The notes under the pieces were generated by a model, which saw only the letters and a list, made by a program, of their open reading frames with translations, had not been told where the DNA came from and searched no databases. From Thiomicrorhabdus sediminis (GTDB lineage Bacteria > Pseudomonadota > Gammaproteobacteria > Thiomicrospirales > Thiomicrospiraceae): a DNA stretch of 64,000 bases. Below are positions 55,190-58,429 of this stretch, piece by piece. The stretch is taken from the NCBI RefSeq assembly GCF_005885815.1, contig NZ_CP040602.1, positions 511,630 to 575,629 on the forward strand. The letters run 5' to 3'. Position 1 is the first letter of the stretch. Every line of letters starts with the position of its first letter. Both the position numbers and the translations under genes were made by a program.

Positions 55190-55265
55190 TCCCCAATAGT
55201 TCAGTTGGTAGAACACCGGACTGTTAATCCGTATGTCCCTGGTTCGAGTCCAGGTTGGGGAGCCA
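55190..55265 (+). tRNA. tRNA-Asn (GTT)
   Basis: A full 76-nt cloverleaf: acceptor TCCCCAA pairs with TTGGGGA, the anticodon loop CTGTTAA carries GTT, the T arm contains GGTTCGAGTCC, and CCA is encoded. Its 3' 47 bp are duplicated at 58341-58387 and form the attachment site of the inserted element. Confidence 0.97.
55219..55265 (+). repeat. attL: 47-bp direct repeat in tRNA-Asn
   Basis: The stretch from the anticodon stem to CCA of tRNA-Asn is identical over 47 bp to 58341-58387. This is the classic attachment-site duplication left by a tyrosine integrase acting at a tRNA 3' half. Confidence 0.95.
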
Positions 55266-55271
55266 CATTCT

Positions 55272-55320
55272 AAAGCCTGATTTTTCAACCACTTACGTGA
55301 GTTTGAAGTCAGGCTTTTTT
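55272..55320 (+). terminator. terminator brought by the element, now serving tRNA-Asn
   Basis: AAAGCCTGA (55272-55280) pairs with TCAGGCTTT (55309-55317), with an inner TTCAA/TTGAA stem and a T run to 55320. It starts six bases after the tRNA and ends at the integrase stop codon. Confidence 0.8.
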
Positions 55321-56353
55321 ATTTTCTAAAGTCGCTTAAAGTAGTGACTGTAGATAATTTTGTAGTTAGGGCGCTCTGGGAGCGGTCTACATACTGTTTT
55401 AGGTGGTCATGCGAGAAGTGAGCGTAACGCTTCACCATCTTGTAGTCTGACCATCCGCCAAGTTCCTGAAGTATCTCTATCGGTGTTCCGCGTTGCACGT
55501 GCCAAGTTGCCCAAGTGTGCCGTAAATCGTGGAAGCGAAAATTATCCAATCCTGCGGCTTTTACAGCATTTTTAAAGGCATAGGTGTTTGCTCTACGGAT
55601 ACCTTTACCTTGATAGGTAAAAACGCGTTCTCGATGCTTTCCTATTTGACGTCGGATAATGCTGACGGCCATTTCAGAAAGTGGGACAACAAACGCCTTT
55701 TCACTTTTCAGAATGTCATCGCCTTCAATGAAAATAACTTTTTGAGATAAATCCACCTGATCCCAACGGAGCAGGGTGATATTGGATTCTCTCAATCCTG
55801 TTTCCAATGCAAAGGCGACCATGTCTGCCAAGTGAGAGGGTAGCAAGCGTAGTAGCTTGTTGGCTTCGGTTTCTGTTATCCAGCGAACACGCTTTTTAGG
55901 TTCCTTCAAGAGTTTGATATAAGGGGGCGAGCATTTCACCTCCCATTCTTTGTGTGCTTTGTTGAGTACGGCTCTCAGTTTTTGCAGATAGCGATTGACG
56001 GTTGCATTGGCGACACCATCCTTGAGTTTGTCTTGGATGATTTCATCAACGTGCATGCGTCTAATCTCGTCCACATACTTATCCCGAAAATACTTGTCAA
56101 AATATCGAAACATTCTGACTTCACTATCTCGGTCTTTGTTCTGTGTTTCCCGCATAAAGCGCACAACGGCTTCCTGCCATAGCATACGTGGCTTTTCACC
56201 TAAGAATTGAACGCGCCATAAGTCGGCTTTTAACAAGTCCATATATTCCTGTGCCTGTCTGCGGTTATCTGTTTTAGTTGAGCGCTGTACGACTGTGCCA
56301 TCGGGTGAGATGAATCGAGTCCACCACACATTATTGCGAAGGTATAGTGACAT
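55319..56353 (-). CDS. int: tyrosine-type site-specific integrase
   Basis: This recombinase of 344 residues should integrate and excise the element at tRNA-Asn. It has an N-terminal arm-type domain (MSLYLRNNVWWTRFISPDG), a core-binding SAM-like domain (about 60-155), and a catalytic domain with Arg in ALETGLRESNITLLRWDQV. It continues with HxLRH in FRFHDLRHTWATWH, the second His/Trp region LGGWSDYKMV, and the nucleophilic Tyr in VKRYAHFSHDHL. All catalytic residues are present, so it looks functional. GAGGA precedes the ATG. It reads toward the tRNA. Confidence 0.95.
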   Translation of the reverse strand: MSLYLRNNVWWTRFISPDGTVVQRSTKTDNRRQAQEYMDLLKADLWRVQFLGEKPRMLWQEAVVRFMRETQNKDRDSEVRMFRYFDKYFRDKYVDEIRRMHVDEIIQDKLKDGVANATVNRYLQKLRAVLNKAHKEWEVKCSPPYIKLLKEPKKRVRWITETEANKLLRLLPSHLADMVAFALETGLRESNITLLRWDQVDLSQKVIFIEGDDILKSEKAFVVPLSEMAVSIIRRQIGKHRERVFTYQGKGIRRANTYAFKNAVKAAGLDNFRFHDLRHTWATWHVQRGTPIEILQELGGWSDYKMVKRYAHFSHDHLKQYVDRSQSALTTKLSTVTTLSDFRK

Positions 56354-56698
56354 AAATGAATCCTCATTAGTGTCAACAACTTACACACACTTCACTCAGG
56401 TATTAAGGATAGGTTTTTATGAGGGTATTGGCAAGAAATAGTGTAGAGAAGCATTAACAGTCTTTTGCCCTTTTTATGGGGTTATTTCAGGTTGTTTTAT
56501 ATCTCGAATGTATTTTGCAGGTGCTGTGTTACTAAGTGACGCACCCAAAAGATTGCACTTTCGCGAGGTGCGTTTGAGCTTGCCGCTCCCGCGGCAATGC
56601 TTCAAACCCACACGCTCATGCGCTTATTTTATTGGCAATGTTGTTAATTTAGTATCATAGTGATAATGACGTATATTTTTTGATTTAAGGGTAGATGA
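56354..56698. other. 345-bp non-coding region of the element with strong secondary structure
   Basis: The gap between the divergent integrase and cargo genes has no reading frame of note. It should hold both promoters, and the cargo ribosome-binding site TAAGGG is at 56686-56691. At 56539-56606 two adjacent inverted repeats can fold into stable hairpins (separate entry). The hairpin region is more GC-rich than the flanks. Confidence 0.7.
56539..56606. ncRNA. possible structured RNA or recombinase-binding hairpins
   Basis: ACGCACC (56539-56545) pairs with GGTGCGT (56567-56573). Directly after it, TTTGAGC-TTGCCGC (56573-56586) pairs with GCGGCAA-TGCT-TCAAA (56591-56606) around a TCCC loop, with only single-base bulges. 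No T run follows, so it is not a simple terminator. It may be an RNA, an integrase arm or excisionase site, or a regulatory operator. Confidence 0.35.
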
Positions 56699-58270
56699 AT
56701 GAGAAATGTAGGTGAGTTAGGCGAGAACTTGTTTAGAGCGTGGTGTTCTCAGTCAGGTTTAAGTCCTACGCGGCCGGATGTGGATAAGTATGGTTGGGAT
56801 TTTATTGTTGAGTTTCCATTTCTATCTCCCTCATTTGAGATTGATGAGTCTGCCCCAGAATGTCGTGTGCAGATAAAATCAACAGATAGCCAAAAAAGGA
56901 GCTTGCCAGTCAAATTGTCGGTCTTGAAAAGAATGGCTACTCAGCTTATGCCATCCTTTTTTGTGTTTATTGAATTTGATAAAAGAAATGATGCTCAGCG
57001 AGTCTTTGTTGTGCATCTTGGTAAAGAGCAAATTTATGATACGTTGAAAAGAATTCATCTGCTTCAAGCAGAAGATCCTGATGTTAATCTGTCAAAAAAA
57101 ACAAAAGTCATACATTATGACGAATCCCATCTGCTTGAGTATATAGATGGACAATGTTTAAAGGATGCGTTTCTTAGGGAAATTGGTGGTGATTATGGCA
57201 AATATGTTTCTGAGAAAAGTGCGTATCTTAAGGAGGTAGGTTTTGAAGAGGGTGGGGAGCAATTTAGTTTTTCGTTGCCCGCGGCACAGAGCTATTCTCT
57301 TTTTGAAATGTCGCTAGGCGTTACTAATAAAATTGAAGTGAAAAATGTAAAGCATTTTAAAACAAGGTTTGGAATAAAAACTGCCGTGCCAGAATTATGT
57401 TCAGATTTTGCTCACATCGAAATATTGGAAGTTAAACCTACTGGTGTAGGAGTGGTTAAATTTCGTGAAAAGAATTCGCTGACTCCGTTGGTGTTTAAAG
57501 CTGAGCTTTATACATCGGCGTTAATTGATACAGTATCGGATGATAAAAAAAAGGCTCGTATTGTGTGTGCTCTTTTTGAACTGGAGATATTTATATTCAC
57601 TGGTTCGATGCAGTTTCATCCTAAGTTTCATGATTCACAAAGATTTCCCTTGGTAGAGTTCATAAAACTTTTTAAGTTGATGAAAATATTCAATGGCAAT
57701 CAGGATTTTACAACGGAGTTGAGCTTTAAAAATGTTTTGGATATTAAGGGGGAGTCTTTTCTCGATAAGGTTTTTGATGAGCGGCTTGATGGGCTTGAAG
57801 CTTCTTTTTATTTAAAACGGATTCAGGATAAAGTTGAATCTGCTGACGAAGTGCAAATATCTTTTGCTGAATTGATTGCTATTGCAGGTCTAATTAAACA
57901 GATTCATGCACTAGTGTATAAAAAAGGTGCTGATTTACAGGTAAAGTTTCATATTGTGGGAGAGCTGGATAAAGATAAGAAGCATGTGATTTTCAAGTTG
58001 TTCAAATTTTCCATTGGAGATTGTTACTACGGAATGATGTTGGCTTTATTTGGTGAGATTAAAGAGATTTCTGATGAAAATAATGTGTCCAAAGTTGGAA
58101 ATAAGCTATTGATGGATGTGAGTCGTTACAATGTAATTAATCAAGTCTTTTTAAGACAGGATGATTTTTCTAATGATGAAGAGTGGGCTTTGATTTTAAA
58201 AAAACAGGTTGAACATTACGATGATAAGTTTAATGTAATTCATCCACCATATGATGATTTATGGTCTTAA
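56699..58270 (+). CDS. DUF4365-type protein with PD-(D/E)XK-like nuclease N-terminus (element cargo)
   Basis: The 523-residue protein begins with a domain resembling DUF4365: GELGENLFRAWC with Glu9, GWDFIVEF with Asp34, and CRVQIKST with Gln58-X-Lys60. This E-D-QXK arrangement fits a PD-(D/E)XK-type nuclease core over about residues 1-170. The C-terminal two thirds (about 200-523) are beta-rich with a helical middle and match no family I recognise. There are no membrane segments or signal peptide. It is the only cargo of a tRNA-Asn element, where anti-phage genes are often found. A defence role is inference; a role in element maintenance is also possible. TAAGGG precedes ATG 56699. Confidence 0.75.
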   Translation: MRNVGELGENLFRAWCSQSGLSPTRPDVDKYGWDFIVEFPFLSPSFEIDESAPECRVQIKSTDSQKRSLPVKLSVLKRMATQLMPSFFVFIEFDKRNDAQRVFVVHLGKEQIYDTLKRIHLLQAEDPDVNLSKKTKVIHYDESHLLEYIDGQCLKDAFLREIGGDYGKYVSEKSAYLKEVGFEEGGEQFSFSLPAAQSYSLFEMSLGVTNKIEVKNVKHFKTRFGIKTAVPELCSDFAHIEILEVKPTGVGVVKFREKNSLTPLVFKAELYTSALIDTVSDDKKKARIVCALFELEIFIFTGSMQFHPKFHDSQRFPLVEFIKLFKLMKIFNGNQDFTTELSFKNVLDIKGESFLDKVFDERLDGLEASFYLKRIQDKVESADEVQISFAELIAIAGLIKQIHALVYKKGADLQVKFHIVGELDKDKKHVIFKLFKFSIGDCYYGMMLALFGEIKEISDENNVSKVGNKLLMDVSRYNVINQVFLRQDDFSNDEEWALILKKQVEHYDDKFNVIHPPYDDLWS

Positions 58271-58340
58271 TGCCGAGTAGGGATGAGTTGATTAAGTTTG
58301 AGTGGAGTGTTGTAATTTGCTGATAAGTAAGTAAAATTGC

Positions 58341-58387
58341 GACTGTTAATCCGTATGTCCCTGGTTCGAGTCCAGGTTGGGGAGCCA
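58341..58387 (+). repeat. attR: 47-bp copy of the tRNA-Asn 3' half
   Basis: Identical to 55219-55265. It contains only the 3' half of tRNA-Asn and lacks the acceptor 5' strand and the D arm, so it is an attachment-site scar, not a tRNA gene. Confidence 0.95.
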
Positions 58388-58396
58388 AATTCTTAA

Positions 58397-58429
58397 AAAG
58401 CCCTAGTCGAAAGACTGGGGCTTTTTTTT
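58397..58429 (+). terminator. original tRNA-Asn terminator, now beyond attR
   Basis: GCCCTAGTC (58400-58408) and GACTGGGGC (58413-58421) form a 9-bp stem (one T-G pair) with a GAAA tetraloop and an eight-T run. It sits ten bases after the tRNA copy, as expected for the terminator before insertion. It also lies at the end of the minus-strand histidine kinase gene. Confidence 0.88.

Follow-up and report, generated by a model that had tools for sequence, protein, structure and literature searches.

What kind of element brings an integrase and a single further gene into a tRNA gene, and what does that one cargo gene do? A locus in Thiomicrorhabdus sediminis raises this question; it lies in a window of 64,000 nucleotides (NZ_CP040602.1, positions 511,630 to 575,629), the whole stretch of DNA that we analysed. 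Elements in tRNA genes with defence cargo are already known, as are DREN nucleases. New here are the two-domain family of the cargo as a stand-alone defence candidate and a minimal, Rep-less carrier.

A 3.1-kb integrative element in tRNA-Asn

A sequence-only reading of the locus had proposed that exact 47-bp repeats bound a 3,122-bp insertion at tRNA-Asn with an intact tyrosine integrase and a single 523-residue cargo protein. The coordinates of the repeats (55219-55265 and 58341-58387) and their spacing of 3122 bp were confirmed, and open reading frames, Pfam and recombinase motifs bore out the two genes, which are the only ones between attL and attR.

55190-55265, plus strand: intact tRNA-Asn(GTT), from ARAGORN; its last 47 bp (55219-55265) are attL
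55271-55322: second terminator-like hairpin, just inside attL
55319-56353, minus strand: tyrosine integrase, 344 aa (Pfam PF00589, Phage_integrase, E 4.8e-33)
56699-58270, plus strand: cargo ORF, 523 aa, from the ORF list
58341-58387, plus strand: attR, 47 bp identical to the tRNA-Asn end that forms attL
58395-58426, plus strand: terminator outside attR, found directly 3' of tRNA-Asn in five congeners

The integrase has the motifs typical of a tyrosine recombinase (GLR 186-188, HDLRH 275-279, GGW 299-301 and Y310), and its combination with exact repeats of the tRNA 3' end identifies a tRNA-integrated element with a tyrosine integrase. The locus is an integrative element of 3.1 kb whose own integrase presumably inserted it into the 3' part of tRNA-Asn. 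A chance origin is excluded, because the 47-bp repeat is exact with one copy inside the tRNA gene and because the cargo is absent in congeners, where it was found in none of the 31 further genomes searched within the genus. Nor is the insertion fixed among relatives: in five congeners the outer terminator comes straight after tRNA-Asn, the arrangement that an empty site would have. Comparison with congeners strongly supports the predicted mobility of the element.

The hairpin just inside attL was considered as a marker of the element and rejected, as hairpins of the same type lie 3' of tRNA-Asn in congeners without a related integrase. A promoter scan gave no more matches than chance would. 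One of the five congeners with the outer terminator (G021) has a different small insertion at tRNA-Asn (L077:4164-6975), comprising a 147-bp direct repeat and a 390-aa ORF; no related integrase was found there.

Sibling elements and a remnant of rep

The window element is a member of a family of elements in the genus, of roughly 5-13 kb. Their genes are those for an integrase and for a Rep_trans-type initiator or a MobV-like relaxase, beside a cargo that varies and can include defence genes. Siblings with 70-76% identical integrases occupy tRNA-Asn in two genomes (G015, G005) and tRNA-Met in four others (G019, G012, G008, G018) and in T. sediminis itself. Some encode a 416-417-aa protein homologous (39%, E 9e-54) to a protein with a weak Rep_trans match, and others a MobV-like relaxase. 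The sibling in the same genome (G000:C1:776.2-789.2 kb; L070, L132) shares with the window element a related integrase (72%), a tRNA 3'-end repeat and a defence cargo, but is about 13 kb long, sits at tRNA-Met and carries other genes, namely Gabija GajA and GajB; its attR matches at 45/47 positions and differs at 2/47. In G019 (L073), two related elements stand in tandem at tRNA-Met, with a common 47-bp att repeat and a 58-bp rep-leader repeat.

Comparison with these siblings gives meaning to the stretch between the integrase and cargo genes:

56355-56436, no strand assigned: region upstream of int, conserved in siblings (local alignments to L070 and L072 beat 30/30 shuffles)
56501-56641, minus strand: what is left of rep, 47 codons of its leader with one stop, 55% identical to the sibling Rep; the remainder of rep is missing
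56508-56538, plus strand: 31-bp block, a candidate origin (of replication or transfer), identical in the rep leader of two siblings
56568-56611, plus strand: imperfect hairpin, a candidate origin hairpin (DNA folding z -3.6)

The pattern of the 31-bp block occurs in 4 of 32 genomes and its reversed-pattern control in 0, and the hairpin is kept in siblings with a different stem sequence (z -1.6 to -4.3). Because the rep leader block and the hairpin are retained while the rep reading frame is reduced to 47 codons and contains a stop, we read the window element as a Rep-less derivative, in which rep would have been deleted down to its leader and the space taken by one gene. If this reading is right, an integrating carrier can be reduced to an integrase, a single cargo gene and the relic of an origin. 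The earlier option of a self-maintaining mini-element is not supported, since the siblings carry rep whereas the window element keeps only its leader.

No other Rep of the sibling Rep family was found in the T. sediminis genome. The hairpin may be an origin of replication or transfer, and the element would use a Rep or relaxase supplied by another element. Rep_trans proteins are able to act as the relaxase of an integrative mobilizable element (PMC7563843). A known class, the iOriT hitchers, consists of integrated elements that have an oriT alone (PMC11389934). Like them, the window element has an integrase and att sites and keeps an origin-like hairpin but no initiator of its own; the class requires a functional oriT used by a relaxase in trans, whereas the conserved hairpin here is a candidate origin and the helper is putative.

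Fold and family of the cargo protein

The cargo protein divides into two domains:

56699-57193, plus strand: PD-(D/E)XK nuclease domain, DREN/DUF4365-like, cargo residues 1-165 (AlphaFold model; E9, D34 and Q58-x-K60)
57194-58270, plus strand: beta-rich C-terminal domain, residues 166-523, without a recognised fold (separate model; R223 and F224 invariant)

Glu9, Asp34, Gln58 and Lys60, which the sequence-only reading had taken for the pattern of a PD-(D/E)XK nuclease, are present where claimed, and the full-length AlphaFold model (pLDDT 86) has the corresponding fold at its N-terminus. Across the family, D34, Q58 and K60 are invariant (48/48 sequences), as are Y169, K173, G181, R223 and F224, and E9 is conserved in 46/48. 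The best solved relatives of the nuclease domain are SPARDA DREN domains (Z 11.6 over 131 residues, 3.2 Å, 18% identity), followed by the Hjc resolvases and the homing endonuclease I-Ssp6803I (Z 9-10); RecU resolvases also match, as do the restriction enzymes DpnI, NhoI, PvuII and HincII (Z 6-8). In motif, D34, Q58 and K60 correspond to the catalytic residues D41, Q60 and K62 of the NbaSPARDA DREN (PMC12205087), and Q62A/K64A is the inactive mutant made of the homologous TmuRE (PMC10810196). It is well supported that the cargo N-terminus has a PD-(D/E)XK nuclease fold with a predicted active site. The DUF4365 label attached to it earlier reflects a real match, but one below the Pfam cut-off (PF14280, 16.8 versus 24.3 bits).

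The remainder of the protein had been described as an unrecognised fold, and this description held: folded alone, the C-terminal 358 residues gave a confident model (pLDDT 86.7, pTM 0.76) for which nothing in the PDB matched at E<=0.001 (best Z 4.6), and a profile of the cargo family had no match among PDB sequences. A two-domain match to SPARDA from a full-length Foldseek search was rejected, as its VIA-align rows cover mainly residues 1-183. The idea of an APAZ domain was dropped, not disproved, because that alignment is mainly N-terminal and the C-terminal domain alone has no match.

Homologues were collected from plasmids, sampled genomes and 41 named loci. They are nearly all single ORFs of about 500-545 aa, from Proteobacteria, Desulfobacterota, Myxococcota and Cyanobacteria, and the closest is 33% identical to the cargo. 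The family is rare in the sampled genomes (2/369 and 5/398, with T. sediminis included), and its tree mixes host phyla, with, for example, a Desulfobulbaceae copy 79% identical to a Shewanella copy; end branches are long, including that of the window cargo, whose exact place is unsure. Searches of deposited phage records did not recover the cargo, and viral contigs yielded 0 homologues in a single-protein scan and 7 in an alignment-based scan. Against PADLOC (2023), the cargo had no whole-protein match to any model and only a partial match to PDC-M02A (62 residues, E 5e-4). In the literature and that 2023 database we found no test of the cargo family for defence; later tests, or mentions in supplementary tables, are possible.

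Genomic setting of homologues and the role of the cargo

The homologue found in IMG/VR contigs and in E. coli occupies the psu-int interval of P4-like satellites, and a further one from a viral contig is placed in a P2-like prophage, flanked by gpA and portal. The E. coli satellite protein (WP_001157928.1) is 31% identical to the cargo over 315 residues. A homologue occurs in 9/5426 complete E. coli genomes, the P4 context being drawn from four regions; tRNA-Thr adjoins the gene in 3/4 of these, and in one of the four the homologue is split into two ORFs, with IS5 between psu and the gene. Rousset et al. (PMC9122126) showed the P4 psu-int and P2 gpA-portal slots to be anti-phage hotspots, which also contain some non-defence genes; DUF4365 is not mentioned in the main text, and the passages drawn on here do not name the cargo family. 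Homologues of the cargo fill both slots as a single gene. The window element itself differs in that it has neither P4 genes (psu, delta, primase) nor P2 genes, and its length is roughly one quarter that of P4.

Elsewhere, a homologue abuts an integrase at tRNA-Phe (L127), and in Halomonas beimenensis one lies inside a 56-bp tRNA-Leu repeat, at which no integrase was detected; further homologues have plasmid or phage integrases nearby. Defence genes adjoining homologues include Gabija, TmtA with a short pAgo, PDC-S46, type III R-M and SIR2. Many close homologues are alone, without an integrase or clear defence neighbours. The three findings by which the sequence-only reading could have been refuted did not turn up: homologues mostly in core chromosomal loci, a predicted structure lacking a nuclease fold, and an insertion shared by all relatives.

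The placement of homologues in established defence hotspots strongly suggests that the cargo functions in anti-phage defence. The single-protein defence system put forward as one option by the sequence-only reading is well supported by the fold, the invariant catalytic residues and the homologues in P4/P2 hotspots and beside tRNA genes and integrases. We consider it probable that the locus as a whole is a Rep-less mini-element carrying a single-protein, nuclease-based anti-phage system. In such a system, the DREN-like PD-(D/E)XK domain would cut nucleic acid by means of D34, Q58 and K60; the C-terminal domain would hold the nuclease off until it meets a putative infection signal; and the nuclease, once activated, would destroy the invading DNA or the cell's own nucleic acids. 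A sensory or regulatory role of the C-terminal domain is presumed from domain logic, and sensing by it is a guess because this domain matches nothing. More tentatively, the family may represent a form of one-protein immunity in which a DREN-type nuclease is controlled in cis by a new C-terminal sensor rather than by a guided Argonaute, with carriers as small as an integrase and one gene; we regard this as a serious possibility rather than an expectation. If the anti-phage reading is true, an uncharacterised family joins the anti-phage arsenal, combining a nuclease known from SPARDA with a new control domain, and its presence in E. coli P4-like satellites makes it directly testable in a laboratory strain.

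Other accounts would give the same two domains different work. Were the cargo a stand-alone restriction enzyme, type IV-like or sequence-specific, its C-terminal domain would read a DNA mark and its N-terminal domain would cut directly, with no infection switch. The structural matches to restriction enzymes fit this account, as does an element without a methyltransferase, which is expected for type IV; those matches nevertheless score below SPARDA DREN, no known reader of DNA marks was recognised in the C-terminal domain, and we judge the account unlikely. SPARDA DREN being the closest fold, the cargo might instead work as an effector only together with a partner encoded elsewhere, such as a short Argonaute, and so represent a SPARDA-type DREN protein that has been split off; one homologue does lie 6.7 kb from a short pAgo. 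Over its residues 1-175 the cargo has the PD-(D/E)XK fold of NbaSPARDA and XauSPARDA, as well as their catalytic D and Q-x-K, but differs in its low identity to these DREN domains, in the lack of an APAZ match for its C-terminal part (weak evidence in itself) and in the lack of an Argonaute partner. The Pfam Piwi model misses short pAgos, so the pAgo_I model was added; neither had a match in the T. sediminis genome and no pAgo lies within the element. With no Argonaute found in its own genome, the cargo is not SPARDA, and, as many homologues stand alone, we think dependence on a partner the most remote of these accounts.

If the nuclease worked for its own element, for example in replication, resolution, homing or maintenance (addiction), and not in defence, its position as sole cargo and its resemblance to Hjc, RecU and I-Ssp6803I would be accounted for. 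Homologues are found, by contrast, in unrelated carriers with replication genes of their own (P4-like, P2-like and plasmids) and also alone in chromosomes without an integrase, which makes such a service very unlikely. A dead remnant, with rep lost, the integrase immobile and the cargo drifting, would explain the truncated rep with its stop and the failure to find a sibling-type Rep elsewhere in the genome; against it stand two intact genes that retain their catalytic residues, identical att repeats and a preserved candidate origin hairpin, so that we hold decay of the whole locus to be improbable. The anti-phage mini-element remains our preferred reading.

Some neighbourhoods of homologues deserve separate mention. 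At L094:2497-4662, a gene for the phage defence candidate PDC-S46 (944 bits) converges on the homologue, and in Agrobacterium cavarae (L113:1851-9958) short pAgo, TmtA and NERD-UvrD genes lie directly upstream of the homologue. In five alphaproteobacterial loci (L107, L109, L115, L117 and L118), the homologue stands beside an imuA-imuB-dnaE2-like cassette, so named from sequence resemblance, together with changing defence-type genes, and this site may be an unrecognised defence hotspot.
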